Source: an uncultured Flavobacteriales bacterium (GTDB taxonomy: Bacteria > Bacteroidota > Bacteroidia > Flavobacteriales_D > Sanyastnellaceae). Taken from it: a DNA stretch of 64,000 nt. The position numbers and the translations under genes are program-made. Positions within the stretch are counted from its first letter, which is position 1, and the number at the start of each line of letters is the position of its first letter. The notes below the pieces were generated by a model. It did not search any database, was not told the origin of the DNA, and saw only the letters and a program-made list of their open reading frames with translations. The stretch is taken from positions 124,001 to 188,000 of the forward strand of contig CALJFZ010000002.1 of the NCBI GenBank assembly GCA_938074325.1, read 5' to 3'. Positions 1,565-47,854 of the stretch are shown here, one piece after another.

Positions 1565-1583
1565 CGAATTCGATTTAGTGGGT

Positions 1584-1614
1584 CGAAGGTAAGAAGTGGT
1601 AGGTGTATTTTCAA
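1584..1614 (-). promoter_or_regulatory. Bacteroidota-type promoter of the SusC-like gene
   Basis: On the minus strand there is a TTG (1614-1612), a 20-base spacer and TACCTTCG (1591-1584), one base off the TAnnTTTG consensus. The start codon is 20 bases further on. It suggests the receptor can be transcribed separately from the amylase gene upstream. Confidence 0.5.
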
Positions 1615-1635
1615 CACGAAGTAATTCGTGACTTG

Positions 1636-6746: not shown

Positions 6747-7452
6747 GCTCAATTTGGTCTGGATTGAAACTGAAGAGTTGCGCGGGCTTATGTGTTACTC
6801 CTTGTTGTTTCTCGTCGAGGGGGACGACATGGCTCATCTTCTTGATGTTTTTCCGGAAATTCCGTTTGTCGAACTTTTTTTCCAAGACCGTTTCGTACAG
6901 TTGCTGGAGTTGACTTAGTGTGAATTTTTTGGGGAGCAATTCGAAGCTGATGTGGTGGCTCTCGAGTTGTGTTTGCAGCGCCTCTATGGCACCTGCCAAA
7001 ATGGTGTTGTGGTCGAAAGCGAGGGGCCCAACATCGCCGATGTCAATCCAGTTAACGCCACCAGCAAACGAGGCGGGTTGTGGGTCGTAGTCGTGCAAAC
7101 TGACGAGGCCAAAATAACCAACCGTGATAACGCGTTGGTCGGGCTTGGTCCTGACTGCCCGCAACCACGATCGGTCTTTGTGATCCTTCACACGATTCGG
7201 GTCCCCGTACGCATGAAATTGTTTGAGGTAGACGCCTTGGACCTGGGTCAACTCGTACAATACGCGTTCTGCCGCTTCATGGAGTCCTTCATCCAACAGG
7301 ATCAGGTCGCCGGGCAGTTGGGACATGGGCTGGCCCGATCCATCGCGGTAGGAATCTTCTTTTTGGTTGATCAACAGCACCTTTAGACCGTCGTCATCGT
7401 ACCCAAACAGGACGCAGTCTACGGACAAGTGCAAGGACTCATTGGTTGGCAT
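6739..7452 (-). CDS. NrtR/AraR-like Nudix-related transcriptional regulator
   Basis: A 237-residue two-domain protein. Residues 1-145 form a Nudix fold (DCVLFGYDDDGLKVLLI, PGDLILLDEGLHEAAERVL), and the C-terminal 80 residues look like a winged helix (FTLSQLQQLYETVLEKKFDK RNFRKNIKK). The Nudix box is degenerate: where the catalytic pattern expects E-x7-REUxEE it has D, then ER-V-L-Y-E, so hydrolysis is unlikely. This is the layout of NrtR-family regulators that sense a sugar or nucleotide ligand. It is first in the minus operon with CotH and amylase and divergent from the pfkA-to-GH65 operon, so it probably controls both sides. A TACTTTTG box lies 5 bases before the ATG. Ligand and direction of control are unknown. 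Confidence 0.85.
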   Translation of the reverse strand: MPTNESLHLSVDCVLFGYDDDGLKVLLINQKEDSYRDGSGQPMSQLPGDLILLDEGLHEAAERVLYELTQVQGVYLKQFHAYGDPNRVKDHKDRSWLRAVRTKPDQRVITVGYFGLVSLHDYDPQPASFAGGVNWIDIGDVGPLAFDHNTILAGAIEALQTQLESHHISFELLPKKFTLSQLQQLYETVLEKKFDKRNFRKNIKKMSHVVPLDEKQQGVTHKPAQLFSFNPDQIEHD

Positions 7453-11118: not shown

Positions 11119-13404
11119 ATGCCTGAGTTGGTAGATCAATGGAAACTCGGAATAGCGGAATGGCAATCCGATGCCGTCCAGCGCTATGAGTCAATTCTGT
11201 CCATCGGAAATGGGCGCATCGGTCAACGTGCCAATTTTGAAGAATCGTTCTCGGGTGAGACTCTGCAGGGTTCATACCTGGCGGGTGTTTATTACCCGGA
11301 CAAAACGAAAGTAGGGTGGTGGAAGAACGGATACCCCGAGTATTTCGCGAAGGTGCTCAATTCCACGAACTGGATTGGCATCCAAGTGGCCATAGACGGT
11401 GAAACCTTGGATTTGGCCCGAGCTCAGTCGGTCGATTCCTTTGTCTGGGAGATGGACATGCGCGAAGGCGTTTTGAGGAGGACGTTCGCTGCGACCCTTC
11501 AAAATGGGGCGTATGTAGAGGTGGAGGCGGAACGATTCTGTTCCATGGACAACCAAGAGTTGGGCTGCATCCAGTACACTGTAAAGGCCCCGGGCCGCGA
11601 AGTCACTTTAGTGCCCTATTTGGATGCGGGGGTGACCAATGCCGATAGCAATTGGAACGATGCGTTTTGGGATGTGAAAGAAGTTGCCAACCGAGGACGC
11701 AATCAAGCCTTCACCTCGGCGTCGACTCATAAAACGGAGTTCGGTGCAGCGTTTGCGATGACGACCCGTGCTGAAAAGCACACGGCGAACGGAACGGAGG
11801 CAATTGAAAGCAATAATAACATCCAAACTGAACTGAAAGCATCCGTTGTCTATTCGGCGAAACTTGCTCAAGGGGAGGCGCTACGTGTGAATAAATGGGT
11901 GGGCATTTGCACAACGCTTCGGCATTCAACTTCTGAATTGGTAGCTGCTGCCTTTGCGCACAGTGAGCTAGCGTCCAAGACGCCATGGGAGGAATTGAAG
12001 GCCTCACACACCGCTAGTTGGTCGCAAATCTGGGACCAAGCGGACATTGTGATTGAAGGGGATGTCGCATCCCAACAGGCCATTCGGTTCAACATCTTTC
12101 ACCTGAACCAGACGTACCGAGGTGACGATGACCGCCTGAACATTGGGCCCAAAGGATTTACAGGTGAGAAGTACGGTGGGGCCAGCTACTGGGATACCGA
12201 AGCCTATTGCATTCCATTCTATTTGGCGGGCCACAAAAAGGACGTGGCCAGGCAACTGCTAGTCTATCGCTTTAACCATTTGTCAAAAGCCATTGAAAAT
12301 GCCGAAAAACTCGGGTTTTCTGACGGTGCAGCTCTTTACCCCATGGTCACCATGAACGGGGAAGAGTGTCACAACGAATGGGAAATCACCTTCGAGGAGA
12401 TTCACCGAAACGGAGCGATGGCGTATGCCATTTGGAATTATGTGAATTACACAGGCGACGCCGATTACCTACGCACCCACGGATTCGCCGTTTTGCTCGG
12501 AGTTGGTCGATTCTGGAAGCAGCGCATCCAATACTCTGAGCACAGAGGTGCTTATGTGATGTTGGGGGTAACCGGGCCCAACGAATACGAGAACAACGTC
12601 AACAACAATTGGTACACCAATTACCTCGCTGCTTGGTGCATGCACTATGCGGTTGAGGTCGCCCGTCAATTGAAAGGTGATCACCCCGACGATTGGAAGC
12701 GATTGGTTGACGAATTTTCAATTTCGGAATCGGAATTGTTCAATACTTGGGAGGCAATTGCGGCGCAAATCTACCTGCCGCAATTGGAGGGTTCGGACGT
12801 GCGCCTGCAGCAAGATGGCTTTATGGATAAGGAGCAGTTGTCCGTAGACCAATTGCCTGCGAATCAGCGCCCTATCAACCAAAAATGGAGCTGGGATAGA
12901 ATCTTGCGTTCTATATTCATCAAGCAAGCGGACGTCCTGCAAGGAATGTACTTTTTCTGGGACGATTTCACCGAGAAAGAACACCGTGCAAACTACGATT
13001 TCTATGAGCCGAAGACGGTCCACGAATCGAGCCTGTCCCCATGTGTACACAGCATCATTGCTGTGCGACTGGGCAAGATGGACGACGGGTACAAGCATTA
13101 TTTACGCACGTCTCGCCTTGATTTGGATGACTACAACAAGGAAGTTCACGAAGGCCTTCATATTACCTCTATGGCAGGAACGTGGCTCTCTGTGGTAGAA
13201 GGCTTCGGAGGATTTCGTGTCCGCGATGGTCGACCTTGCTTCTCAGGGACGCTTCCAGAAGCTTGGGACGGACTTCAATTCAAAGTCAATTTCCGCGAAC
13301 GCTTGCTGCAGGTGTCGGTTCGTGGAAGTGGGACCGAAGTCAGCCTGCTGGAGGGCGAGCCGTTGGAAGTAGAGGTGAACGGCCAAGTGACCGGCCTATC
13401 TTAA
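11119..13404 (+). CDS. GH65 glycoside phosphorylase, probably maltose phosphorylase
   Basis: A 761-residue inverting phosphorylase of family GH65 without signal peptide, so cytosolic. It has the (alpha/alpha)6-barrel motif SYWDTEAY (residues 357-363), the general acid in VTGPNEYENN (Glu489, where many relatives have GPDEY) and the phosphate-binding HESSLSPCVHS. The expected reaction is maltose plus phosphate to glucose and beta-glucose-1-phosphate. The operon partners pgmB, kinase, pfkA and gap process both products, and a secreted amylase is encoded divergently. Trehalose, kojibiose or nigerose phosphorylase are possible alternatives within the family. It is last in the operon; its end lies 7 bases from a convergent gene and no hairpin terminator is evident. 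Confidence 0.92.
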   Translation: MPELVDQWKLGIAEWQSDAVQRYESILSIGNGRIGQRANFEESFSGETLQGSYLAGVYYPDKTKVGWWKNGYPEYFAKVLNSTNWIGIQVAIDGETLDLARAQSVDSFVWEMDMREGVLRRTFAATLQNGAYVEVEAERFCSMDNQELGCIQYTVKAPGREVTLVPYLDAGVTNADSNWNDAFWDVKEVANRGRNQAFTSASTHKTEFGAAFAMTTRAEKHTANGTEAIESNNNIQTELKASVVYSAKLAQGEALRVNKWVGICTTLRHSTSELVAAAFAHSELASKTPWEELKASHTASWSQIWDQADIVIEGDVASQQAIRFNIFHLNQTYRGDDDRLNIGPKGFTGEKYGGASYWDTEAYCIPFYLAGHKKDVARQLLVYRFNHLSKAIENAEKLGFSDGAALYPMVTMNGEECHNEWEITFEEIHRNGAMAYAIWNYVNYTGDADYLRTHGFAVLLGVGRFWKQRIQYSEHRGAYVMLGVTGPNEYENNVNNNWYTNYLAAWCMHYAVEVARQLKGDHPDDWKRLVDEFSISESELFNTWEAIAAQIYLPQLEGSDVRLQQDGFMDKEQLSVDQLPANQRPINQKWSWDRILRSIFIKQADVLQGMYFFWDDFTEKEHRANYDFYEPKTVHESSLSPCVHSIIAVRLGKMDDGYKHYLRTSRLDLDDYNKEVHEGLHITSMAGTWLSVVEGFGGFRVRDGRPCFSGTLPEAWDGLQFKVNFRERLLQVSVRGSGTEVSLLEGEPLEVEVNGQVTGLS

Positions 13405-34477: not shown

Positions 34478-34551
34478 GGCGGGATAGCTCAGCCGGTTAG
34501 AGCGCAGGATTCATAATCCTGAGGTCGAGAGTTCGAGTCTCTCTCCCGCTA
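34478..34551 (+). tRNA. tRNA-Met (anticodon CAU), elongator type
   Basis: A 74-base cloverleaf: acceptor 34478-34484 with 34544-34550 (one G-U pair at the end), D arm with AGCCGGTTA loop, anticodon stem CAGGA/TCCTG around TTCATAA (anticodon CAT at 34512-34514), variable AGGTC, T arm GAGAG-TTCGAGT-CTCTC, discriminator A. No encoded CCA. It lacks the C1-A72 mismatch and the GGG/CCC stem of an initiator tRNA. Lysidine-type tRNA-Ile cannot be fully excluded because it shares the CAT anticodon. Confidence 0.93.
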
Positions 34552-34557
34552 CGACTA

Positions 34558-34587
34558 AAAGCCATCAACTTCGGTTGGTGGCTTTTT
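34558..34587 (+). terminator. Rho-independent terminator after tRNA-Met
   Basis: Arms 34558-34569 and 34574-34585 pair over 12 positions (one G-T) around a TTCG loop and run into TTTTT. It lies 6 bases after the tRNA. Confidence 0.85.
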
Positions 34588-34807: not shown

Positions 34808-37800
34808 ATGAGCCATACTCAGCAAACAAAAACCATATACCTGGGCGACCAGCCCGTCAATGCCAGTTCGGAAAATGTAACTGGTCAAGAGACCATCCTG
34901 GATGGCGAGACGTATTACAAGATTGGCGAAGTCGACAAAATGCGGCCTTTCTTCATGAGCATTGTTTCCCACTCGGATCATTGGATGTTCATTTCCAGTA
35001 CCGGTGGTCTGACCGCCGGGCGCATAAACAGTGACAATGCTCTGTTTCCGTATTACACGGATGATAAAATCACTGAGTCATTCGATCATACGGGGAGTAA
35101 GACAATAGCTATTGTTAAGCAGGGGGGGCGTAATTTACTCTGGGAGCCGTTTTCTGGGCAGCACCGAGGCGTCTACCGCGTCGAACGAAACCTCTACAAA
35201 AATGCCTACGGCAACAAAGTCATTTTTGAAGAAATAAACCACGATTTGGCCCTGGCTTTCCAGTATCAGTGGGCTCCGAGTGAGCATTTTGGATTTAGAA
35301 GGCAAGCGAAGTTGACTTCCCTTTCTAAAGAAGCCATCGAGGTGAGTCTGCTTGACGGTGTTCAGAATATTTTGCCCTTTGGTGTGCCAGAGGGCTTGCA
35401 AGGAGGCGCGAGCAACCTGGTAGACGCATACAAAAAGTGCGAATTGGAAGCTGGGGTTCTCGGTGTTTTCGCGCTGAGTGCCATTATTTCTGACAAGGCA
35501 GAACCCAGTGAGGCGCTCAAAGCAAACGTGGCGTACGCGTTGGGCTTGGACAACCCGAAGGTTCTCCTGTCGTCCAAGCAGGTTTCAGCATTTCGACAAG
35601 GTCACTCCATTCACAACGAAGTAGACGTCAAGGCCGAACGCGGCGCTTATTTTGTTCAGACCGAATTGGCGATTGCCCCGGGAGCTGTCAAGCAGTGGTC
35701 CATTGTCGCCAACCTCAGTCAATCAGTGAGCGATGTCATTCGCCTAAGTGAAGAACTGAAAGACCCTGTGGCCATGGCTGCCGCGTTGGACGCCAACATT
35801 GAACAGGGTACGCAGCAACTCATTGGGTTGATTGCGGCGAGCGATGGCTTGCAGTTGACAGCGGACCGCCGGCGCAACATTCGCCACTTTGCAAACACCA
35901 TGTTCAACGTCATGCGTGGGGGCATTTTTGATGAGAATTACAAGATCGAACGCCAGGATTTCATGGCGTACATCGATCAAGCCAATCACAAGGTCTTTTT
36001 CAAAAAGGCCGATAAAATGGCGGCTTGGCCTGAAGAGTTTGACTTGTTTTTCTTGCAAGAGCAAGCCAGTGCAGATGATGACCTCAATTTCAAGCGGCTC
36101 TGTGCTGAATACTTGCCGTTGAAGTTTAGCCGGCGGCACGGCGATCCAAGTCGACCGTGGAATAAATTCTCCATCAACCTCCGTAATGCAGATGATGGTT
36201 CGAAGATTTTAGATTACCAAGGCAATTGGCGCGATATCTTCCAGAACTGGGAAGCGCTGGTGCACTCCTATCCTGAGTTCATCGAGGGCATGGTCTTCAA
36301 ATTTTTGAATGCCACCACATTCGACGGTTACAATCCATACCGCGTGTTCAAGGATGGGTTTGAATGGGAGACCATCGAGCCGGACAACCCGTGGTCCTAT
36401 ATCGGCTACTGGGGGGATCACCAGATCATCTACCTCCAAAAGTTTTTGGAGTTTATGCAGGCGTACTTCCCTGAAAAGCTTGAAAGCTACTTCGACAACG
36501 ACTCGTTTGTGTACGCTAACGTGCCCTACCGCATCAAGCCATACGAGGCATTGCTGGAAGACCCGAAGAACACCATTGACTTTGATCACGAACGCGAGTC
36601 CAAGGTTCAATTCAAAAAAGACGAGATCGGGGGAGATGGAGCGCTCCTGCGCGAGACTCACGTATTCATTTACAAAGTGAATTTCGTCGAGAAAATCATG
36701 GCCACCATGATGGCAAAGATTGCCAACTTCATTCCTGAGGGGGGCATTTGGATGAACACGCAGCGACCAGAGTGGAACGATGCGAACAATGCATTGGTCG
36801 GGAACGGCGTGTCGATGGTAACGCTGTATTACTTGCGCCGATTTATGGTGTTCTTCCACGAAATACTTGCAAAGAGCGAGCACAAAGAAGTGCAGATTTC
36901 GACAGAGCTGCTCGATTGCTTCGTGCGCATGAAAGCAACGCTGGAGGCACACGCTGCAGAAGGGGCGGTGACCAACGCCGAACGCCGTTCTATTCTGGAC
37001 GGGCTTGGTAAAGCGGCAAGCGATTACCGTCAGGCGATTTACGACAGCGATTTCTCTGGCAAGAAGTCCGGTTTGGTCTTGGATGATTTACGCGCATTCA
37101 TGGCGACGACAATTGCTCATCTGGAGCATTCAATTGCTGCCAACAAACGAGCGGATGGATTGTACCATGCGTACAACCTGATGACGGTCGAATCCGATGG
37201 GGGAGTGGCCATTTCTTACCTGCCAGAAATGCTGGAGGGTCAGGTGGCTGTGCTGAGTTCAGGCTTGCTGGGATCATCCGAAAGTCTTGAGGTATTGGAT
37301 GCATTGAAGTCCAGTGCGCTCTTCCGTGAAGACCAATACAGTTACATCTTGTATCCAAACAAGTCGTTGCCTCGCTTCTTGGACAAGAACAACATCGACG
37401 CTGCTGCGGTGGATCAGTCCGAGCTGTTGAAACGCTTGCTTTCCGAGGGCAATACAGATATCCTGGTCAAGGATTGCAAAGGAGGCTACCACTTCAATGG
37501 CAATTTCCACAATGTCAAGGCGTTGCGCGCGGCCCTTCAAAAGCTACCGGAAGCTTATGGAAAACTGGTTGCCGCTGAACAAGCTCAAATCGAAGCCATC
37601 TACGAGGAGAACTTCAATCACAAGGCGTTCACAGGACGATCTGGAACATTCTTCGGATACGAGGGGTTGGGGTCAATTTATTGGCACATGGTTTCCAAAC
37701 TTCGACTCGCCGCTTTTGAGGTAACGAAAGCTGCAGTTGAGGCTGAAGAATCCAGTGATGTTGTGGGGCGTTTATTCGATCATTATTTCGAAATCAACGC

Positions 37801-38263
37801 GGGAATTGGTGCGCACAAGTCGCCCGATTTATATGGAGCGTTCCCAACAGATCCATACTCGCACACACCGGGCGGCAAAGGAGCTCAACAACCGGGTATG
37901 ACCGGCCAAGTAAAGGAAGACCTGTTGTGTCGTTTCGGAGAACTCGGCGTTCGTGTGAACGAGGGGCAATTGGAATTTGACCGAAGGATGATGCACAGCG
38001 AGGAATTCCTGAGCAACCCTGAAACATTCCATTACGTTGACGTTCATCAGGTGGCCCAATCCATCGAACTCGCGAGCGATAGTTTGGTCTACACGGTGTG
38101 CCAAGTTCCAGTTGTTCACCAGAGAGGCGAAAACGCCGGAATCGATGTGCATTTCAGCAACGGCCAGCAAGAGCGGGTGGAAGGGCTGCAGATTGATCGC
38201 ACCACAAGTCAGCAGATTTTTAGAAGAACAGGAGAGGTCGTACGGTTGACAGTTACTGCATAA
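34808..38263 (+). CDS. Beta-1,3-glucan phosphorylase-like enzyme, GH149/GH94 type
   Basis: An 1151-residue protein with no signal peptide, hence cytosolic. The fold is that of GH94-like inverting phosphorylases: an N-terminal beta-sandwich (GRINSDNALFPYYTDDKITE, RNLYKNAYGNKVIFEEI), an (alpha/alpha)6 barrel with the catalytic-Asp motif RPEWNDANNALVGNG (Asp658) and a C-terminal segment AQQPGMTGQVKEDLL (about 1030-1045). Length and context match family GH149, known beta-1,3-oligoglucan phosphorylases, rather than the roughly 800-residue cellobiose phosphorylases. It would convert laminarin oligosaccharides plus phosphate to alpha-glucose-1-phosphate. Four genes follow within 2-18 bases: GH17, GH30 fusion, symporter, GH17. 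GH161 or another linkage is the main alternative. It is first in the operon. Confidence 0.8.
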   Translation: MSHTQQTKTIYLGDQPVNASSENVTGQETILDGETYYKIGEVDKMRPFFMSIVSHSDHWMFISSTGGLTAGRINSDNALFPYYTDDKITESFDHTGSKTIAIVKQGGRNLLWEPFSGQHRGVYRVERNLYKNAYGNKVIFEEINHDLALAFQYQWAPSEHFGFRRQAKLTSLSKEAIEVSLLDGVQNILPFGVPEGLQGGASNLVDAYKKCELEAGVLGVFALSAIISDKAEPSEALKANVAYALGLDNPKVLLSSKQVSAFRQGHSIHNEVDVKAERGAYFVQTELAIAPGAVKQWSIVANLSQSVSDVIRLSEELKDPVAMAAALDANIEQGTQQLIGLIAASDGLQLTADRRRNIRHFANTMFNVMRGGIFDENYKIERQDFMAYIDQANHKVFFKKADKMAAWPEEFDLFFLQEQASADDDLNFKRLCAEYLPLKFSRRHGDPSRPWNKFSINLRNADDGSKILDYQGNWRDIFQNWEALVHSYPEFIEGMVFKFLNATTFDGYNPYRVFKDGFEWETIEPDNPWSYIGYWGDHQIIYLQKFLEFMQAYFPEKLESYFDNDSFVYANVPYRIKPYEALLEDPKNTIDFDHERESKVQFKKDEIGGDGALLRETHVFIYKVNFVEKIMATMMAKIANFIPEGGIWMNTQRPEWNDANNALVGNGVSMVTLYYLRRFMVFFHEILAKSEHKEVQISTELLDCFVRMKATLEAHAAEGAVTNAERRSILDGLGKAASDYRQAIYDSDFSGKKSGLVLDDLRAFMATTIAHLEHSIAANKRADGLYHAYNLMTVESDGGVAISYLPEMLEGQVAVLSSGLLGSSESLEVLDALKSSALFREDQYSYILYPNKSLPRFLDKNNIDAAAVDQSELLKRLLSEGNTDILVKDCKGGYHFNGNFHNVKALRAALQKLPEAYGKLVAAEQAQIEAIYEENFNHKAFTGRSGTFFGYEGLGSIYWHMVSKLRLAAFEVTKAAVEAEESSDVVGRLFDHYFEINAGIGAHKSPDLYGAFPTDPYSHTPGGKGAQQPGMTGQVKEDLLCRFGELGVRVNEGQLEFDRRMMHSEEFLSNPETFHYVDVHQVAQSIELASDSLVYTVCQVPVVHQRGENAGIDVHFSNGQQERVEGLQIDRTTSQQIFRRTGEVVRLTVTA

Positions 38264-38273
38264 CGTCAAGGCC

Positions 38274-39560
38274 ATGTGGATTTTCTCAAAATCGAATCCT
38301 AGATTCGTGAATCGGGCTTCTAGAGTCAGCGGCGTGCTTGCAGGTGCGGCTTTGACATTCGGGGTCTTTCTGTCCGCTTGCGGGCAACCAAAACCTAACC
38401 CAACCATGGACACACCATCTGCAGCTCAGTTACTCGGAAATCCGGATTATCCCGCCATCTCATACGGTGGGTACCGCGATGTCAGTCGTTCAGTACAACC
38501 GACTATCGAGGAATTGAAGGAAGACATGCGCATCCTCCACGCCATGGGCATACGGATCCTGCGAACGTACAACGTGCAGTTGCCTCACGCATCCAATGTT
38601 GTCAAGGCCATAGCAGCCCTGAAAGAGGAAGATGAGTCTTTTGAGATGTACGTGATGCTGGGGGCCTGGATTGATTGCAAAGGAGCGTGGACCGATTCCC
38701 CAGACCACAGCGTAGAAGATGCGTTGTCCAACGAAGCGGAAATTCTTCGGGCTGTTTCGCTCACTCAAAAATTTCCGGACATCATCAAGGTTATCGCGGT
38801 TGGGAACGAAGCGATGGTGCATTGGGCCGCTTCTTACTTTGTCGGACCCGAAGTCATTTTGGGATGGGTCAACTACCTGCAGGGATTGAAGCGTCAAGGC
38901 AAATTGCCTCAAGACCTCTGGGTCACCAGTTCAGACAACTTTGCGTCATGGGGAGGCGGTGGATCTGAGTACCATAACGATGACTTGGTTGCATTGGTCG
39001 ACGCCGTTGATTATGTGTCGATGCACACGTACCCTTTCCATGACACCCATTACAATCCTTCGTTTTGGCGGAATGATTCACTCGTCGCAAAGGGCGCCGT
39101 GGAACGTGCGATGGAGCGGGCCGTCGACTACAGCAAAGACCAATACCAACGGGTGGTTCGCTATGTCCATGCTATTGACCCAGAGAAGGCCGTTCACATC
39201 GGTGAAACGGGCTGGGCAAGCGTGTCAGATGGATTTTACGGTCCTGAGGGTTCACGTGCTGCAGACGAATACAAACAGGCGCTGTTCTACCAAGGGATGC
39301 GGGATTGGACCCAATCTGAAGGCATCAGTTGTTTCTATTTCGAAGCATTTGACGAACCCTGGAAGAGTGCTGTGAATCCGACCGATTCCGAAAACCATTT
39401 CGGCTTGTTCACGGTCAAAGGCGAGGCGAAGTTTGCGTTGTGGCCCCTGGTCGACTCAGGTGTTTTTGTAGGGCTCAGCCGAGATGGGATGCCCATAGAG
39501 AAAACGTATTCCGGTGAACGCGAATTGCTGGATCGCCATGTCCTTTTACCCGTTCAGTGA
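38274..39560 (+). CDS. Lipoprotein glycoside hydrolase, GH17-like beta-1,3-glucanase
   Basis: A 428-residue protein with a lipoprotein signal (AGAALTFGVFLSACG, lipobox LSAC near residue 36), so anchored in the outer or inner membrane envelope. The TIM barrel shows the GH17/clan-A pattern: IRILRTYNVQLP, the acid/base in IAVGNEAMVHW (Glu179), MHTYPFHDTHY and the nucleophile in HIGETGWAS (Glu311), then CFYFEAFDEPWK. The expected action is endo- or exo-cleavage of beta-1,3-glucan. It starts 10 bases after the phosphorylase gene and ends 3 bases before the GH30 fusion. Beta-1,3-glucan transglycosylase is an alternative within the family. Confidence 0.84.
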   Translation: MWIFSKSNPRFVNRASRVSGVLAGAALTFGVFLSACGQPKPNPTMDTPSAAQLLGNPDYPAISYGGYRDVSRSVQPTIEELKEDMRILHAMGIRILRTYNVQLPHASNVVKAIAALKEEDESFEMYVMLGAWIDCKGAWTDSPDHSVEDALSNEAEILRAVSLTQKFPDIIKVIAVGNEAMVHWAASYFVGPEVILGWVNYLQGLKRQGKLPQDLWVTSSDNFASWGGGGSEYHNDDLVALVDAVDYVSMHTYPFHDTHYNPSFWRNDSLVAKGAVERAMERAVDYSKDQYQRVVRYVHAIDPEKAVHIGETGWASVSDGFYGPEGSRAADEYKQALFYQGMRDWTQSEGISCFYFEAFDEPWKSAVNPTDSENHFGLFTVKGEAKFALWPLVDSGVFVGLSRDGMPIEKTYSGERELLDRHVLLPVQ

Positions 39561-39563
39561 ACC

Positions 39564-42071
39564 ATGATTACAAACAAGAAATCTAGCCAAAAGCAAAATC
39601 CCCAATGGTTCGTGGCCGTGGTGGTTCTGCTATTGCTGAGCGCATGCACCTCGAAATCAACCACTCGGTCCTGGGTTGAGCAAGGATCCATCCACACGGA
39701 ACAAGGGCCATTTTTCATCCGAGGTATCTGTTACCATCCAGTTCCAGCGGGAGACACCCTGCGGAGTTTTGACCGCATCGAAGAAGATTTGGAGCTGATG
39801 CATTTGGCGGGTATCAACACCATTCGTGTGTACGAGCCGATTGCTTCCAAGTCTGTTCTTGATGCCATTCATGCGGCCGGACTTAAGGTCATTGTTGGCT
39901 TCGGATACAACCAAGGAGGCGTCTACGATATTCAATCGGGAACATTTGTTGACTACGTTCGGAGGTTCAAGGCGCATCCTGCAATCCTGCTTTGGGAACT
40001 GGGAAACGAGTACAACTACCATCCGGAATGGTTTGACGGCGATATCGATGTGTGGTATTCTGCGTTGTCGAATGCTGCAGACGCGATCCACCAAGCAGAC
40101 GCAGATCACCCGGTGGCTACAGCGCACGGGGAAGTGCCTACCGATGAGTTGCTCGCTCAACTGGGCAACATCGATGTGTGGGGATTGAATGTGTACCGTT
40201 GGGATGTCTCCTACACCGCATGGAAGGATTTTGCGGCTAAAAGCGAGAAGGCCATGTACTTTTCAGAGCTTGGTGCAGATAGTTACATGGCAGCAGGCGC
40301 TGGTGAATACAAGGCTGGGGAGAACCAGCAGGCCCAAGCAGACGCTACGCGAAAATTATTGGAACCCATTCTCTCTGATTCTTGCGGTGCCGCCGGCGCG
40401 GTCGTTTTCTCATTCACCGACGGTTGGTGGAAGGCGGGCAATCCAGAGCAACAAGATGTGGGAGGCTGGGCGCCAGAAAGCAGCGGTGTTCCTTACGACG
40501 GAGCTCCTAATGAGGAATACTGGGGGATTGTCGACATAGACCGCGAGCCAAAGGCTGCATATGGCGTGGTTCAGTCATTGTTCAAAAAGCATAACTCTTC
40601 GCGTATGAAGGACGTATATTTCCAAAAGCGGGTGTTTCAAACCAGTCGCAAAGGAGGGCGGTTCCACGAAGTCCCTCAATCCAAATTGGATGACTGGGAG
40701 CGACCACAATCCAATGGTCAGGAGGAAATCCGAATTCAAATTCATGCTGATCAACGAAAGCAGACCATCGAAGGGTTTGGGGGGTCTTTTACCGATGCCT
40801 CTGCCTACCTCGTTCACCAGCTAAGTCCGACTCAGCGGAAGAACATCATGGAAGCATATTTCGGAGAGGAAGGCGCGAATTACAGCCTCACACGCACCCA
40901 CATGAATTCGTGTGATTTCTCGCGTTTTCATTACAGTTATGCCACAGTAGAAGGGGATTTGAACCTAGAGCACTTTAACATCGATCAGGACTTGGAATTC
41001 ATCTTCCCCATGATCAAGTCTGCCCAAGAAATTTCAAAGGACGGTTTTCACTTGATTGCATCCCCGTGGACGGCGCCACCTTGGATGAAGGACAACAACG
41101 ATTGGGTAGGAGGACGACTGCTGAAGGAGATGCAACCTACATGGGCGCAATTCTTCGTGAAATATGCCCAAGCATGCGAAGCGAATGGCATCCCTTTGTG
41201 GGGGTTCACGGTTGAAAACGAGCCCCATGGCAATGGCGACAATTGGGAAAGCATGCTCTACAGCCCAGACGAAATGACGGAATTCGTCGAAAAGCATTTG
41301 GGCCCGGCTCTCGCGTCCAATGACTTCGGACATCTGAATGTTTTGGGGTACGATCAAAACCGCGCTGGCTTGCATGAATGGACGGAGTCGATGTACCGAG
41401 ATTCAACAAGTGCCAAGCATTTCGCGGGAACAGCTGTGCACTGGTACGAGAGCACGTACGACTATTTTCCGGATGCCCTCGATAGCGCGCATGAGGCCGC
41501 GCCGGAAAAGCTGTTGATTCAAACGGAAGGCTGCATTGATGCAGAGGTACCCGTGTGGCAAGATGACGATTGGTACTGGCGTAAGGAAGCCACGGACTGG
41601 GGATTTACCTGGCGAGAGGAAGACAAAAAATACCTGCATCCAAAGTACGCTCCTGTCAATCGCTACGCCCGAGACATCATAGGTTGCTTGAATCACTGGG
41701 TAAACGGTTGGGTGGATTGGAACATGGTCCTTGACCGGCAAGGCGGCCCCAACTGGTTCAAAAACTGGTGCATCGCTCCGGTCATTGTGGATCCGGAGCA
41801 AGATGAAGTCTACTTCACTCCACTTTACGATGTCATGTGCCACTTTAGCAAGTTCATCCGCCCCGGTGCAACCATATTGGCCAGTGAGTGCGGCGATTCC
41901 GAAGTGATGACTGTGGCCTCGGAAAATACCGATGGTTCGTACACGGTAGTCTGCTTCAATCCCGGGGATGAACCACGACACGTACGCATTGACGGCATCT
42001 CGCAAGGATTCGGATTTGTCCTCGATGCGCAAGCGTTGCAAACGATTGTTCTAACCCCAATCAAAAACTAG
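39564..42071 (+). CDS. Two-domain lipoprotein: GH2/GH5-like domain fused to GH30 beta-glucanase
   Basis: An 835-residue lipoprotein (VVVLLLLSACTSK) carrying two separate catalytic barrels. Residues 35-345 resemble the TIM barrel of GH2/GH5 enzymes: FFIRGICYHPV, NTIRVYEPIA, the acid/base in LWELGNEYN (Glu149) and nucleophile in YFSELGADSY (Glu235). Residues 390-835 are GH30: TIEGFGGSFTDASAYL, ASPWTAPPWMKD, acid/base in TVENEPHG (Glu553), nucleophile in IQTEGCIDAE (Glu655) and a C-terminal beta-sandwich. GH30 members cleave beta-1,6- or beta-1,3-glucose links, so this could remove laminarin branches while the first domain cuts another bond. All four catalytic carboxylates are present. Position 3 bases behind the GH17 gene shows co-expression. 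Confidence 0.87.
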   Translation: MITNKKSSQKQNPQWFVAVVVLLLLSACTSKSTTRSWVEQGSIHTEQGPFFIRGICYHPVPAGDTLRSFDRIEEDLELMHLAGINTIRVYEPIASKSVLDAIHAAGLKVIVGFGYNQGGVYDIQSGTFVDYVRRFKAHPAILLWELGNEYNYHPEWFDGDIDVWYSALSNAADAIHQADADHPVATAHGEVPTDELLAQLGNIDVWGLNVYRWDVSYTAWKDFAAKSEKAMYFSELGADSYMAAGAGEYKAGENQQAQADATRKLLEPILSDSCGAAGAVVFSFTDGWWKAGNPEQQDVGGWAPESSGVPYDGAPNEEYWGIVDIDREPKAAYGVVQSLFKKHNSSRMKDVYFQKRVFQTSRKGGRFHEVPQSKLDDWERPQSNGQEEIRIQIHADQRKQTIEGFGGSFTDASAYLVHQLSPTQRKNIMEAYFGEEGANYSLTRTHMNSCDFSRFHYSYATVEGDLNLEHFNIDQDLEFIFPMIKSAQEISKDGFHLIASPWTAPPWMKDNNDWVGGRLLKEMQPTWAQFFVKYAQACEANGIPLWGFTVENEPHGNGDNWESMLYSPDEMTEFVEKHLGPALASNDFGHLNVLGYDQNRAGLHEWTESMYRDSTSAKHFAGTAVHWYESTYDYFPDALDSAHEAAPEKLLIQTEGCIDAEVPVWQDDDWYWRKEATDWGFTWREEDKKYLHPKYAPVNRYARDIIGCLNHWVNGWVDWNMVLDRQGGPNWFKNWCIAPVIVDPEQDEVYFTPLYDVMCHFSKFIRPGATILASECGDSEVMTVASENTDGSYTVVCFNPGDEPRHVRIDGISQGFGFVLDAQALQTIVLTPIKN

Positions 42072-42076
42072 TCCCC

Positions 42077-43507
42077 ATGCAAGAATTGGCTTCATCCTCT
42101 CCGTCCAAATCCCAAGGCGTTTCCCTCGGACAAAAGGTCGCCTTCGGGTTCGGAATGCTGGCGAACCAGATGTTTCCCGCAGCCTTGGGTGTGTTCATCA
42201 TCGTGTTGGTCCAGGATCTTGGGTTTGCCGCCATGTTGTGGGGCATCATTCAATTCTTGCCCCGCATTTTCGACGCTATCACCGACCCCATCATGGGATT
42301 CATTTCGGACAACACCCGTTCGAAATACGGACGCCGACGGCAATACGTATTCATCGGCGCATTGCTCATGGGCATCGCATACATTGCCATGTGGCAATTG
42401 CACAAAGGGGATGGGGTCGTTTATAATTTCATCTATTTCTTGAGCTGGTCCCTCGTCTTCTATTTAGGACTTACCATATTCAGTGTTCCCTACGTAGCCA
42501 TGGGCTATGAGATCAGTGAAGATTTCCATGAACGGACTGAAATCATGGCCGTCGCCCAGTTCATTGGCCAATGGGCTTGGGTTATCGCTCCTTGGTTTTG
42601 GGTCATTTTATACGACCCGGCTTGGTTTCCGGAGGGGGCCGACCAAGGCGTTCGAGATTTGTCCATCTGGGTGGCCATTCCGTGCACACTGTTTGCCTTG
42701 ATTCCTGCCTTGTTCATCAAGAGCGAGTCAACTCTGGATCGGACGGATTTTTTGCCCATTAGCTTCAAGCAAGTAACGAGCAGTGTCAGGGATATTTTCA
42801 CCTCCGCATTTGAAGCTTTTCGCATTAAACAATTCCGTCAAATAGCGGGTGCTACATTCTTGATTTTCAACTCTTTCAATGTTATAGCTGCGTATACGTT
42901 CTTGATCATTGTCCACTACCTGTTCAATAGCGATCCAGCGAGCGCGGGGAATTGGCCTGCCTTGCACGGTTCGGTCGGTGCTTTGGTGACTACGTTCCTC
43001 GTGATTCCGCTGGTCACACGCATGTCAAAGCGCATGGGAAAGAAGAAGGCGTTCATTGTCTCTCAGCTTATTTCTATCATCGGGTATGTGTTGTTCTGGT
43101 TCTTGTTTGTCCCCGGTAAGCCTTATTTGTTCCTCTATGCCCTGCCTTTCCATTCATTTGGAATAGGGAGTCTATTCACGATTATGATGAGTATGACAGC
43201 GGATGTCTGCGACCTGGACGAACTCCAGACGGGCAAACGGCGCGAAGGTGTATTGGGAGCGGTGTATTGGTGGATGGTCAAATTGGGCTTTGGCATCGCC
43301 GCACTGCTCGGTGGAACCATTTTATCCCTGGTAGGTTTTGATGCGTCGAACGTGACGGAATCGGCTGTTACAGGCATGCGCTTGTTCTATACGTTTTTGC
43401 CGATAGCAGGTGTGGTTGGAGCTGTTTTGATTATGAAGAATTACGACATCACCGAGGCCAGAGCAGAAGAAATTAAGGCTGAGCTGATGAAAAAACGAGC
43501 GAATTAG
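42077..43507 (+). CDS. GPH-type sugar:cation symporter (MFS superfamily)
   Basis: A 476-residue inner-membrane transporter with about 12 hydrophobic segments. The family motif after helix 2 is clear: FDAITDPIMGFISDNTRSKYGRR (helix 2-3 loop), with VPYVAMGYEIS and, in the second half, RREGVLGAVYWWMVKLG. These are features of the glycoside-pentoside-hexuronide symporters. Inside this operon it should bring beta-glucan oligosaccharides or glucose into the cytosol, where the phosphorylase and the second GH17 act. There is no SusC/SusD pair here, so outer-membrane passage must use another route. Confidence 0.9.
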   Translation: MQELASSSPSKSQGVSLGQKVAFGFGMLANQMFPAALGVFIIVLVQDLGFAAMLWGIIQFLPRIFDAITDPIMGFISDNTRSKYGRRRQYVFIGALLMGIAYIAMWQLHKGDGVVYNFIYFLSWSLVFYLGLTIFSVPYVAMGYEISEDFHERTEIMAVAQFIGQWAWVIAPWFWVILYDPAWFPEGADQGVRDLSIWVAIPCTLFALIPALFIKSESTLDRTDFLPISFKQVTSSVRDIFTSAFEAFRIKQFRQIAGATFLIFNSFNVIAAYTFLIIVHYLFNSDPASAGNWPALHGSVGALVTTFLVIPLVTRMSKRMGKKKAFIVSQLISIIGYVLFWFLFVPGKPYLFLYALPFHSFGIGSLFTIMMSMTADVCDLDELQTGKRREGVLGAVYWWMVKLGFGIAALLGGTILSLVGFDASNVTESAVTGMRLFYTFLPIAGVVGAVLIMKNYDITEARAEEIKAELMKKRAN

Positions 43508-43525
43508 AAATAAACTTTTTCAGTC

Positions 43526-44410
43526 ATGTCTTTCCGAAAAGAGCAAGTCCTATCGTTGACCGGTGCACAAGTCAACTCGCTTGAAAAAGGTGCCTTACGA
43601 GAAAAAAGTAGGTCCCTTCTCAATGGTAAAATTCACGGCATCTGCTTCAGTCCTTATGAGGGAGAGCAGGAGCCTGGTGACGAAATTTCTGAATCGCAGG
43701 TTCGTAGGAAACTCGAACTTTTAAAGCCCTACACGAATTGGATCCGGGTCTTTTCGTGCACTGAAGGCAACGAAATGATTCCGCGACTGGCAAAGGAATG
43801 CGGTTTTCAGACCCTCGTAGGTGCCTGGCTCGGAGAAGATTTGGAAAAGAATGAAGTGGAAGTGGCTGCCCTTGTTGCCCTCGCCAAATCAGGGTATGTA
43901 GATGTGGCAGCAGTCGGTAATGAAGTCATGTACCGTGGAGAGCTTGAAGAAAGTGAACTTATTGGGTACATCGAGCAAGTCAAATCCGCAATCCCTGAAA
44001 TTCCTGTTGGGTACGTAGACGCATATTACGAGTTTACTGATCGCCCGGCAATAACCGATGCTTGTGACGTGATCCTCGCCAACTGTTATCCATATTGGGA
44101 GGGATGTTCTATTGAGTATTCCCTACTCTATATGAAGCAGATGTATTATCAGGCTGTGCAAGCAGCACAAGGGAAGAGGGTTATCATTACAGAGACGGGC
44201 TGGCCAAGTGAGGGTGAGGCCTTGGGCGATGGCGTTCCGGGGTACGAAAACGCGCTGAAGTACTTCGTCAATGCTCAGGTATGGTCAGCGACAGAGGGCA
44301 TTGAAATGTTCTATTTCTCATCGTTTGACGAGGCCTGGAAAGTAGGGTCAGAAGGCAGTGTGGGTGCGTATTGGGGACTTTGGAACCAGCACGAGGACTT
44401 GAAATTTTGA
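43526..44410 (+). CDS. GH17-like beta-1,3-glucanase without signal peptide
   Basis: A 294-residue compact GH17 barrel: ICFSPYEGEQEPGDEIS, WIRVFSCTEGNE, acid/base in AAVGNEVMYRGE (Glu133), NCYPYWEGC, nucleophile in VIITETGWPSEGE (Glu223) and FYFSSFDEAWK. ITETGWPS is the classic GH17 signature, closer to it than the lipoprotein at 38274. No signal peptide or lipobox is seen, so it is probably cytosolic and would trim imported oligosaccharides for the phosphorylase. It is last in the operon, 18 bases after the symporter, and is followed by a terminator. Confidence 0.86.
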   Translation: MSFRKEQVLSLTGAQVNSLEKGALREKSRSLLNGKIHGICFSPYEGEQEPGDEISESQVRRKLELLKPYTNWIRVFSCTEGNEMIPRLAKECGFQTLVGAWLGEDLEKNEVEVAALVALAKSGYVDVAAVGNEVMYRGELEESELIGYIEQVKSAIPEIPVGYVDAYYEFTDRPAITDACDVILANCYPYWEGCSIEYSLLYMKQMYYQAVQAAQGKRVIITETGWPSEGEALGDGVPGYENALKYFVNAQVWSATEGIEMFYFSSFDEAWKVGSEGSVGAYWGLWNQHEDLKF

Positions 44411-44429: not shown

Positions 44430-44453
44430 AAAAGGGGCACAGGCCCCTTTTCT
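44430..44453. terminator. Terminator between the beta-glucan operon and the RRM gene, likely bidirectional
   Basis: AAAAGGGGC and GCCCCTTTT pair around a 4-base loop. A-tract on the left and T-tract on the right allow use by the plus operon and by the minus-strand RRM gene ending at 44471. Confidence 0.85.
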
Positions 44454-44947: not shown

Positions 44948-47854
44948 ATGCGATTTCTTTTTACCCTCCTCCTAGCGTTACCGCTTTTGACCCAAGCTCA
45001 ATTGTGTTCTGAGCCTTCTCCTATCTCTTACACAGGATTTGGAGCGCAACAGACTCAGGCCGATTTGCTGCCGGATGCAAATTTCCTTGATGGGCTCAAC
45101 AACTCATCATATTGGTCATTGGGTTCAGGTATCAGCGACAATAACCTTTGCGTTCAAGGCAACAGCGACGTGACCACCTTCTTGGGTGTGAAGCTTCGCA
45201 ATGCCGTTGCACCCAACGACAACCCAACCAGCGCAGGAGCTGTCTACTTCGTTGAGCCTGGTTTTAGTCCTGAGGTCCAAGGGGGTGACGCTGGCAATGG
45301 CCCCGAAGCAAAGTGGAACATCCTGATGTATGCAGGCATAGAAAACGCCGCTTTCGACAGCGTTGATGTGATCTTGCACATCGACTTCGACCCTTGCTTC
45401 AACTACCAGGAGGAGGATATGTACTCGATTAACATCGGCGAGGCATTCGATTCGAATCCATTTACGCAAGCGCAGGATTTCTCGAGTTTTGGAATCAATA
45501 CCAACATGGGCTCATCCGAGATCGCCAACTTGAACCCCGCAGGAACAGGCTTTGATGCGACAGTAGAAGGTTTCTACACCTTCGCGGTTGAGGTCAAGAA
45601 TAATTGCGGGACCCGCAAAATGTGGAATGAAATTACTGTTTACGTTCAGTCTGAGACAACCGCTTCGGGTGATGCTGCTGCAGATACAGATGGCAACGGC
45701 ATTTTCGATGACAACGATGTAGTAGGATGCCAGAATGACCAGGCTTGCAATTATGATTGTACCGCTACCATCAATAACGGATGTGACTTCGTTTCATGTT
45801 CTGGTTGTACGGTTGCAAATGCTTGCAACTACAACCCTGAAGCAACCGTTGCAGATGCGGCATCGTGTACGTATCCGTTGGATCTATATGGCGCCACCCA
45901 TTTTGATTGCGATGGCAATTGCATCAACGATGCGGATGGGGATGGCGTTTGCGACGAAGACGAGGTAACCGGATGCCAGGATGCATCGGCTTGCAACTAC
46001 AGCGCAGCTGCTACAGATGCTGGAAACTGCTCTTATCCGGCTACTGCGTTGGATTGCGATGGGAACTGCCTGAACGATGCTGATGCGGATGGTGTGTGCG
46101 ATGAATTTGAAGTGCTTGGCTGTACGGACGAGGGTGCATGCAACTTTAACGAATTGGCAACAGATGACGACGCCTCCTGTGAGTACACTAGCTGCGCTGG
46201 CTGTGCCATTGCTCAAGCATGCAACTACGACAACACTGCAACCATCAGTTCAGCTGTCTGCTTGTTTGCAGGGAACTGTGACACATGCTCTGGAGAGCAG
46301 GATGGAACTGGCACGGTGATCAGCGGCGACAGCGACGGAGATGGTGTATGCGATGCGGACGAAGTGCTTGGATGTACAAACCCCGCAGCCCCTAACTTCA
46401 GCATTCAGGCTACGGAAGACGACGGCTCATGCATTTCTGTTTCTTTCGGATGCATGATTCCTATTGATTGCAACTATGACTCGAGCGCAACATACTTCGA
46501 CATCACAGCGTGCTCGCCTGAAAACGGCGGTTCAACTGCGTGCGCCGCTACAGGAGGTTCGCCTCTTCCTTTCGGCATGATCACGACTTGTCAGATTGCA
46601 TCTGCATGCAACTACGGCGAGGAAGGAGATTGTGAATGGGCTTCTTGCGTAGGATGTATGAACCCCGATGGCTGTGATTACGACGAAAACAACATTTATC
46701 CTGTAGCATGTGATTATTCATGCTATGGTTGCACCAACTCAGATGCAGATAACTACGACGCCACTTCAACGGCCGATGATGGTTCGTGTGTGGTTAGCGG
46801 ATGCACGGTAACTACTGCTTGCAATTACGACATGGACGCCACTACGAATGACGGTTCATGTGAATTCGATAGTTGCGCAGGGTGCATGGATGCCACGGCT
46901 TGTAACTTCGATGCCACTGCTACATTGAACTTGACGTTGGCATGCGATTACCCTGAGACCGCTTACGATTGCGACGGGAATTGCCTGAACGATGCGGATA
47001 GCGATGGTGTCTGTGACGAATTCGAAGTCGCAGGATGTACCGATGCTGATGCGTGTAACTTCGACGGGGGCGCAACGGATGAAAACGGTACTTGCACCTA
47101 TCCCTCAACCGACTACGTTGATTGTGCAGGCAACTGCCTGACTGATGAAGATGAGGACGGTGTCTGTGACGAGGTCGAAGTCTTCGGGTGTGATATTTCA
47201 ACTGCCTGCAACTACGATGCCTTGGCAACGGAGAACGATGGATCTTGTGAATACTCATCTTGTGCAGGTTGCATGGACGAGACTGCGTGCAACTACGATG
47301 CAACGGCGACATTGAACAATGCTTTGTCTTGTGAATACATTCCTGCTGGATGGGATGATTGCGAACAGACCATTTGCACAGATAACGATGCAGACGGGAT
47401 TTGTGATTTTGACGAGCCAGCAGACTGCATTGGTGAATTCAACGCTCCTTCTCTGAGTTTGGACGCAGTTGTCGAAACAGCCGTTGAGGTTTCCCTTTGG
47501 TCGGCTACGTCCTTCGCTGGCGACGCTTCCGACGACACGGGCGTGGCTACATCAGAGTACGTTGATTATGCCGGTCGATTGAACGATGGACGCTATCATG
47601 TAACACGTGTTTACACTGTGACAGATGTGTGTGCCAACAGTTCCAACATTGCTCAACTCATCGTTGCAGACGACAGCCACACTGCGGGCTGTACGAACGC
47701 AAACGCAACGAACTATGATGCGAACGCGATCAACGACAACGGTACATGTGATTACTCACCTGCATGTTTGGGTGATTTGAACCTGGATAACATTGTCGGT
47801 ACATCTGACTTGCTCATCTTGTTGAGCTCATTCGGTCTGCCTTGCTCAGAATAA
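44948..47854 (+). CDS. Secreted cysteine-rich repeat protein with C-terminal dockerin-like module
   Basis: A 968-residue exported protein of unknown function. After a signal peptide (MRFLFTLLLALPLLTQA) comes a 230-residue non-repetitive domain. From about residue 258 to 940 run some 16 degenerate repeats of the form GCTDxxACNYxxxATxxDGSCEY, many followed by DCDGNCLNDADxDGVCDExEV, an acidic calcium-loop like thrombospondin type 3 repeats. Cysteines are dense and regularly spaced, so many disulfides and calcium ions are likely. A beta-sandwich-like stretch lies near 830-890. The last 30 residues (CLGDLNLDNIVGTSDLLILL) are one dockerin-like EF-hand; there is no T9SS sorting domain. The gene is monocistronic with its own terminator. 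A structural surface or matrix role is inferred. Confidence 0.85.
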   Translation: MRFLFTLLLALPLLTQAQLCSEPSPISYTGFGAQQTQADLLPDANFLDGLNNSSYWSLGSGISDNNLCVQGNSDVTTFLGVKLRNAVAPNDNPTSAGAVYFVEPGFSPEVQGGDAGNGPEAKWNILMYAGIENAAFDSVDVILHIDFDPCFNYQEEDMYSINIGEAFDSNPFTQAQDFSSFGINTNMGSSEIANLNPAGTGFDATVEGFYTFAVEVKNNCGTRKMWNEITVYVQSETTASGDAAADTDGNGIFDDNDVVGCQNDQACNYDCTATINNGCDFVSCSGCTVANACNYNPEATVADAASCTYPLDLYGATHFDCDGNCINDADGDGVCDEDEVTGCQDASACNYSAAATDAGNCSYPATALDCDGNCLNDADADGVCDEFEVLGCTDEGACNFNELATDDDASCEYTSCAGCAIAQACNYDNTATISSAVCLFAGNCDTCSGEQDGTGTVISGDSDGDGVCDADEVLGCTNPAAPNFSIQATEDDGSCISVSFGCMIPIDCNYDSSATYFDITACSPENGGSTACAATGGSPLPFGMITTCQIASACNYGEEGDCEWASCVGCMNPDGCDYDENNIYPVACDYSCYGCTNSDADNYDATSTADDGSCVVSGCTVTTACNYDMDATTNDGSCEFDSCAGCMDATACNFDATATLNLTLACDYPETAYDCDGNCLNDADSDGVCDEFEVAGCTDADACNFDGGATDENGTCTYPSTDYVDCAGNCLTDEDEDGVCDEVEVFGCDISTACNYDALATENDGSCEYSSCAGCMDETACNYDATATLNNALSCEYIPAGWDDCEQTICTDNDADGICDFDEPADCIGEFNAPSLSLDAVVETAVEVSLWSATSFAGDASDDTGVATSEYVDYAGRLNDGRYHVTRVYTVTDVCANSSNIAQLIVADDSHTAGCTNANATNYDANAINDNGTCDYSPACLGDLNLDNIVGTSDLLILLSSFGLPCSE
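45683..47755 (+). repeat. About 16 degenerate Cys/Asp-rich coding repeats
   Basis: Within the 44948 gene the unit GC-[TQ]-D-x2-AC-N-[YF]-x4-AT-x3-G-x-C-x-Y recurs, in two lengths: short units of about 25-30 residues and long units of about 50 residues that include DCDGNC and DGVCDE. One copy of the same unit appears in the 62707 gene (GCTDANAANFNIDATYNDGS). Confidence 0.85.

Follow-up and report, generated by a model that had tools for sequence, protein, structure and literature searches.

A probable laminarin utilisation operon with a GH30 domain fused to a second glycosidase in an uncultured Flavobacteriales bacterium

Introduction

Laminarin, a beta-1,3-glucan with beta-1,6 branches, is a major marine carbon store, and gene modules for its degradation are among its expressed sinks (PMC10108472). 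One such module, with the order GH149-GH17-GH0-GH30-MFS-GH17, is published as variant 1/B of the laminarin polysaccharide utilisation loci (PULs) of marine Flavobacteriia (Formosa, Polaribacter, Muricauda and Cd. Prosiliicoccus; PMC13188888, PMC10108472, PMC6246565), and biochemical work has shown that FbGH30, FbGH17A and FbGH17B act on laminarin one after another, debranching and cutting it (PMC6246565). Forms without susCD are described, in the available text of two papers, as GH149-containing clusters of carbohydrate-active enzymes (CAZymes) (Kuhaudomlarp 2018, Fig. 7C; PMC5827456) and as a laminarin PUL in the NS4 clade metagenome-assembled genome (MAG) W_MB115 (Sidhu 2023; PMC10108472). 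Here we analyse a related operon at positions 34808-44410 of a 64,000-nucleotide stretch (the window; G000:C2:124001-188000) from the genome of an uncultured Flavobacteriales bacterium (G000; 2.15 Mb, 59 contigs). This genome is 88% complete, so that absences from it are not final.

The families and order of its genes make it very probable that the operon encodes the hydrolytic and phosphorolytic core module of laminarin utilisation. A preliminary description of the same DNA had implied that a GH149 operon without SusC and SusD was new, a claim that the susCD-less clusters cited above take away. The module, the activities of its main enzymes, its major facilitator superfamily (MFS) transporter and its susCD-less forms are already published, and the operon adds one member. 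Its unusual part is a putative GH30 debranching enzyme fused to a second, little-studied glycosidase.

Gene content of the operon

The operon consists of five + strand open reading frames (ORFs) separated by gaps of 10, 3, 5 and 18 bases (Table 1), in agreement with the five same-strand genes and gaps of 3-18 bases described previously. The same gene set recurs in relatives, so the gene order is not due to chance.

Gene 1 matches the curated NCBIfam GH149 model NF058639 with 1727 bits (cut-off 1150) over residues 21-1150, and the GH149 enzyme Pro_7066 (PDB 6hq6) with 1489 bits over residues 14-1149; its Pfam search gave no match. The motifs WND (656-658) and RD (475-476) and the phosphate-site His 960, whose roles in GH149 are described in PMC6771811, are kept as in Pro_7066, the alignment having been compared up to the His region. 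Two other families were considered and rejected, since GH161A (9qqk) reached only 51.4 bits and a chain named cellobiose phosphorylase (9h8v), standing for GH94, only 49.8 bits. The phosphorylase previously called cytosolic and GH94/GH149-like can hence be placed in GH149, with no signal peptide seen, and its identification as a beta-1,3-glucan phosphorylase, which would act by phosphorolysis, is supported.

Gene 2 (GH17a) scores 27.5 bits with the Pfam GH17 model, narrowly under the cut-off of 28.2, and was filed as GH17 because of its match to PDB 6fcg (544 bits, E 2e-162, residues 44-426). The latter entry is listed only as GH17 family, and we take it to be FbGH17A. The catalytic motifs used here for GH17, GH30 and clan GH-A are likewise those that we take to be typical. 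Together with its lipobox, these data uphold the earlier reading of gene 2 as a lipoprotein GH17 and support a putative endo-laminarinase that matches the characterised FbGH17A over its length. Gene 4 matches the MFS_2 model PF13347 with 204.5 bits (cut-off 27). Gene 5 (GH17b), previously described as a GH17 without signal peptide, indeed matches PF00332 (GH17; 51.8 bits, cut-off 28.2) and shows none at its N-terminus; it also matches PDB 4wtp (6e-34), and its nearest relatives are beta-1,3-glucanosyltransferases.

Gene 3 was correctly described as a lipoprotein with two glycosidase barrels, the second being GH30. Its C-terminal half matches the GH30 barrel model PF02055 (247.9 bits against 23) and the beta-sandwich model PF17189 (26.4 against 22), and its best solved relatives are glucosylceramidases. 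With a model of the endo-1,6 enzyme BT3312 this half reaches 197 bits, under the cut-off of 700.

The N-terminal barrel of gene 3

The barrel scores 26 bits with the GH2 TIM-barrel model PF02836 (cut-off 21), which all 40 barrel sequences of the set match at E <= 0.01, and 36 of the 40 match the GH72 Pfam model with weaker scores (20.5 bits for the window member, cut-off 25.9). The N-terminal sugar-binding and Ig-like domains of GH2 are not listed for the barrel, whose start is at most some 15 residues from the lipobox; lacking these accessory domains, it was not filed as GH2. A structural model from nine sequences (mean predicted local distance difference test, pLDDT, 62.3) was discarded for one from 40 sequences (mean pLDDT 84.8). 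The latter aligns in VIA-align with 6ncw (GH2) at Z 28.3 (287 aligned residues, 3.5 A) and with 9g4n (LaGH157 with laminaritriose) at Z 28.0 (293 aligned, 3.7 A; LaGH157 range Z 26.9-28.0). It also ties with many glucuronidases, at structure-row identities of mostly 16-21%, and in the sequence profile comparison GH158(Pro) ranks first (E 6.5e-12). As the GH2, GH157 and GH158 structure rows tie at low identity, and other GH-A families may be unlisted, the family was left unassigned; sequence and model point to a clan GH-A enzyme near GH2/GH157/GH158. Glu149 and Glu235 (fused-protein numbering), the pair expected in clan GH-A, are invariant in all 40 members.

A profile search with the barrel gave 320 relatives in the contigs of genomes from 84,980 species; the viral contigs searched gave none. 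The best 80 of the 320 loci were analysed, 44 of them with flanks of 6.5 kb or more on either side. Gene presence was scored anywhere in the locus with our own identity thresholds: among these 44 loci, GH149 is present in 41, the symporter in 42, GH17a in 38, GH17b in 30 and GH30 in 29. In L034 (same contig as L115), L116, L138 and L158, contigs or loci that are possibly incomplete, the barrel is the only exported glycosidase of the operon seen beside GH149 and the symporter; exported work of the barrel without GH17a or GH30 therefore appears possible. Judged by gene order and position, the barrel is probably the 'GH0' of the published GH149-GH0-GH30_1-GH17 laminarin PULs. According to Sidhu 2023, transcripts of the GH0 of a GH149-GH0-GH16_3 PUL ranked within the highest 10% in an Aurantivirga MAG from the North Sea (PMC10108472). 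A search of the literature on the entry 9FZ9 by name gave no match; it was identified through the structural comparison. Usually found beside GH149 and with no family assigned here, the barrel is a candidate enzyme for testing.

Outside Bacteroidota, the barrel occurs with GH149, symporter, GH17 and GH30 in a different gene order in three loci of Pontiellaceae (Kiritimatiellota; L136, L156 and L166). Two loci titled Salinisphaeraceae (L105) and Candidatus Rokubacteria (L109) carry a Flavobacteriales-like operon with 62-86% identity to the window proteins and are probably mis-binned contigs.

Fusion of the barrel to GH30

A single ORF encodes both barrel and GH30 in 11 cases: the window, L082 and nine loci of the set of 80 (L104 is truncated by the contig end). 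We met no description of this fusion in the literature searched. A tree built from 56 GH30 rows groups the nine fused ones in a single clade (support 99/97), which is consistent with, and no proof of, a single fusion. The next sisters of this clade, L102 (96/86), L117 (100/99) and L119 (90/66), followed by a five-member clade, are all separate genes with no visible signal peptide. Among the separate GH30 genes as a whole, 35/44 have a lipobox or a hydrophobic N-terminus, those farther out being mostly exported, and nine have neither. Of these nine, L130 has a borderline value and is placed in a different part of the tree. A detectable signal peptide is also absent from the published Muricauda GH30_1 (PMC13188888), so that signal loss is not unique to the fusion lineage. 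The simplest order of events is probably that an exported GH30 lost its signal and was then fused to the exported barrel, which would have returned it to the envelope; the alternative, a fused ancestor that was split several times over, would require a larger number of changes. The fusion would be a probable case of enzyme export lost and later restored by gene fusion, and it probably shifted the cell location of the enzyme.

All 11 fused ORFs have a start-type codon at the old GH30 start (ATG in nine, TTG in two that look like one species). With the TTG pair counted once, Met is kept in 9/10 sequences at the joint column; the seven neighbouring columns on each side are kept in 3-9/10, 12 of the 14 at 4-7 (ungapped; one row has an extra upstream residue). 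This kept codon allows, rather than demonstrates, a second cytosolic product. We think it quite unlikely that the fused gene gives both an exported lipoprotein and, from the internal ATG at 40605, a cytosolic GH30 of 488 residues (about 56 kDa) as in the sister species, with beta-1,6 branches cut in the periplasm as well as on imported branched oligosaccharides.

Conservation and loss of the operon

A sample of 199 genomes from the order of the host contained GH149 in 16 cases (11 over the cut-off), and seven of these 16 belong to the host genus, host included. Within the family, the operon order is kept where contigs permit a view. The GH149 frame (L040:9485-12962, L158) or the symporter frame (L034:95-1850) is split in two in some loci, by assembly error or decay.

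A methyltransferase gene and tRNA-Met upstream of the operon are conserved. Of nine congener stretches compared, L185 has the start of the operon; L183, L184, L187 and L188 have the tRNA-Met and no operon protein even at E 1, and L182, L186 and L189 end too early to judge. In L181 the operon is absent, and directly after tRNA-Met lies a scar (L181:2204-2326) composed of the last 41 GH17b codons (71% identity, residues 254-294) and a terminator-like hairpin. Because of this GH17b remnant, the patchy distribution includes at least one case of loss and not of original absence. The idea of a mobile element is not supported: in all genus members seen the operon has the same place behind tRNA-Met, and at least one of the absences is due to a deletion.

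Location of the exported enzymes

Acidic residues after the lipobox Cys are linked to surface export in Bacteroidota. Lipoboxes, hydrophobicity and acidic residues were scored by crude scripts of our own and not by SignalP. At least three acidic residues at positions +2 to +6 occur in none of the GH17a (0/40), barrel (0/33) and GH30 (0/23) lipoproteins of relatives and in 6/16 of their GH16 proteins, and the two lipoproteins of the window have zero. For the published laminarin enzymes, many of which are surface-tethered or periplasmic, Unfried et al. consider two to be 'likely residents of the periplasm' (PMC6246565). A periplasmic place is thus favoured for GH17a and the fused lipoprotein, in place of the cutting and debranching at the surface proposed in the preliminary description.

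SusCD loci and the outer-membrane step

No SusC or SusD gene was found in the operon, and no pair adjoins it, as previously stated; the nearest SusC over the family cut-off (G000:C2:122466-125498) lies 33 kb away and overlaps the left edge of the window. This SusCD was rejected as a partner and probably serves alpha-glucans, since its neighbours are GH13 alpha-amylases. Window positions 1-6752 and 11119-13404 (L048) contain part of this alpha-glucan SusCD locus (SusC and a GH13 with a tail of the type IX secretion system type), then a CotH-like protein and, about 4 kb on, a GH65-family enzyme.

In the host genome, three SusC pass the family cut-off, and a SusD accompanies each of them; 17 weaker matches cover mostly the N-terminal region. 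Besides the alpha-glucan locus, one (C17) has the order GH3, CBM48 protein, SusC, SusD, unknown lipoprotein and GH16, with GH2 on the opposite strand; its GH16 is laminarinase-like (3azx and 4dfs matches), and GH3 and GH16 with SusCD also make up the published variant A laminarin PUL. The other (C3) has the order GH5, PKD protein, SusD and SusC; a GH3 gene follows at a distance of about 2.6 kb, beyond a gene resembling penicillin amidase. The outer-membrane step, which the preliminary description left to a porin or a distant SusCD, therefore has candidates encoded elsewhere in the genome.

Among relatives, neither SusC nor SusD was found in 15 loci with GH149, each at most 20 kb long, from the order of the host, and in none of 14 GH149 genomes does the contig with GH149 carry a listed SusC (E <= 1e-100) at 30 kb or less from it, several contigs being short (3.5 kb in G056, 4 kb in G160); the nearest lie at 34 kb (G146) and 37 kb (G113). 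Within the limits of flank length, a coarse SusC/SusD blastp detected a pair in 1/80 barrel loci, and a home-made hidden Markov model detected SusD at the upstream edge or nearby in 7/95 loci, edges included. Loci with SusD include those of Algibacter, Flaviramulus, Formosa, Tamlana and Polaribacter, and some barrel loci are canonical PULs. The absence of SusCD from a locus does not imply its absence from the pathway.

Proposed pathway and alternatives

From the gene families, gene order and export motifs we infer the following course. The products of a SusCD/GH16 locus at another genomic site would bind laminarin, cut it on the cell surface and pass it into the periplasm. There, the GH30 domain would take off beta-1,6-glucose branches, GH17a would break the beta-1,3 chain thus freed of branches down to short oligosaccharides, and the barrel may trim beta-glucan oligosaccharides. 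The symporter would move the oligosaccharides into the cytosol, where GH149 would release glucose-1-phosphate by phosphorolysis and GH17b would rearrange or cut chain ends. The preliminary description is thereby supported as to a beta-1,3/1,6-glucan as the target, uptake by a symporter, which would lie in the inner membrane, and phosphorolysis in the cytosol, the families having been tested by profiles and matches.

The operon might instead be self-contained and serve scavenging, with small laminari-oligosaccharides made by others diffusing in through a porin and no SusCD involved, as Kuhaudomlarp et al. propose for Type I clusters without an outer-membrane transporter (PMC5827456). The lack of SusC and SusD near the operon and around GH149 in the relatives (some contigs being very short) would fit this proposal, and so would the persistence of the host SusCD loci in congeners without the operon. 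Yet the host genome does have SusCD loci with laminarin-type GH16, GH3 and GH5, and two exported glycosidase proteins with three catalytic domains would argue for a substrate above general-porin size; we regard scavenging as unlikely. Another beta-glucan (fungal-type beta-1,3/1,6-glucan, paramylon or mixed-linkage glucan) could also be the substrate, laminarin being incidental, as GH149, GH17 and GH30 alone cannot separate laminarin from other beta-1,3/1,6-glucans. The full-length match of gene 2 to an enzyme active on laminarin, and the laminarin induction reported for the corresponding Formosa cluster (PMC13188888, PMC6246565), argue against such a substrate, which we consider very unlikely.

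Several observations weigh against the laminarin pathway that we prefer. The C17 and C3 loci lie on contigs other than that of the operon, and among nine congeners without GH149 at least seven keep a C17-type SusC (80-97% identity) and at least six a C3-type (73-91%); these SusCD loci are therefore not dedicated to the operon, which slightly lowers our confidence. The C17 GH16 has only two acidic residues at +2 to +6, so that its surface place, too, is putative. The earlier assignment of gene 4 stands at the level of MFS_2, and its narrower part is not supported, the GPH model TIGR00792 giving 177 bits, under the cut-off of 231. Published activities of cytosolic GH17 differ between exo-beta-1,3-glucosidase in Formosa and glucanosyltransglycosylase in Muricauda (PMC6246565, PMC13188888). 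In L034, a member of the genus, GH17a and GH30 are both missing from the space between GH149 and symporter, which shows that the gene set is not indivisible. No regulator was found in the operon.

Boundaries and neighbouring genes

Upstream, the operon is delimited by a hairpin behind tRNA-Met (Table 1). Its closure by a terminator, already noted in the preliminary description, is borne out downstream by a second hairpin within a 36-base fold of -15.1 kcal/mol, which is not among the terminators listed by a consensus scan. The convergent - strand gene beyond it encodes a product that presumably resembles an RRM RNA-binding protein. Further on, positions 44948-47854 encode a protein of 968 residues that contains numerous Cys-rich 'GCTD..ACNY' repeats and is weakly similar to TSP3; the congeners L183 and L188 have related repeats after the tRNA-Met site.

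Table 1. Features of the operon and its boundaries (window positions; aa, amino acids)
Feature	Position	Strand	Evidence or remarks
Terminator-like hairpin	34557..34586	+	Behind tRNA-Met (34478-34552); upstream operon boundary, 221 bp before first ATG
Gene 1: putative GH149 beta-1,3-glucan / oligoglucan phosphorylase, 1151 aa, no signal peptide seen	34808..38263	+	NF058639, PDB 6hq6
Gene 2 (GH17a): putative GH17 endo-laminarinase, lipoprotein (Cys36), 428 aa	38274..39560	+	PDB 6fcg, lipobox, GNE and ETGW motifs
Gene 3: fused lipoprotein (Cys28), 835 aa; predicted clan GH-A barrel (~33-345) and GH30 beta-1,6-glucosidase-like domain (~370-835)	39564..42071	+	
In-frame ATG (Met348) at the barrel-GH30 joint	40605..40607	+	Matches start position of relatives' separate signal-less GH30 genes
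Gene 4: MFS_2 / GPH-like sugar:cation symporter, 476 aa	42077..43507	+	PF13347
Gene 5 (GH17b): GH17, 294 aa, no signal peptide visible, probably cytosolic	43526..44410	+	PF00332, PDB 4wtp, N-terminus
Terminator hairpin common to the operon and the convergent small - strand gene	44430..44451	+	36-base fold

Comparison with known systems

In a comparison with text passages, the operon resembles the clusters of Kuhaudomlarp 2018, in which GH149 occurs with beta-1,3-glucanases, GH3 and/or GH30_1 and no susCD is described, and W_MB115, whose variant 1 laminarin PUL is described without a susCD pair. The barrel has the clan GH-A barrel fold in common with LaGH157, GH158(Pro) and the GH2 beta-galacturonidase/glucuronidase, at identities of only 18-21%, and lacks the extra GH2 domains. 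As far as the available text goes, the operon also resembles the variant 1/B laminarin PULs, in which GH17A, GH30, MFS and GH17B have the same order, GH149 lies upstream, and an unclassified 'GH0' stands between GH149 and GH30_1. In Formosa, the symporter and GH17b are fused, whereas they are separate genes in the window. Unlike the variant 1/B PULs, the locus of the window is without GH16 and susCD, and its barrel and GH30 are fused into a single protein.

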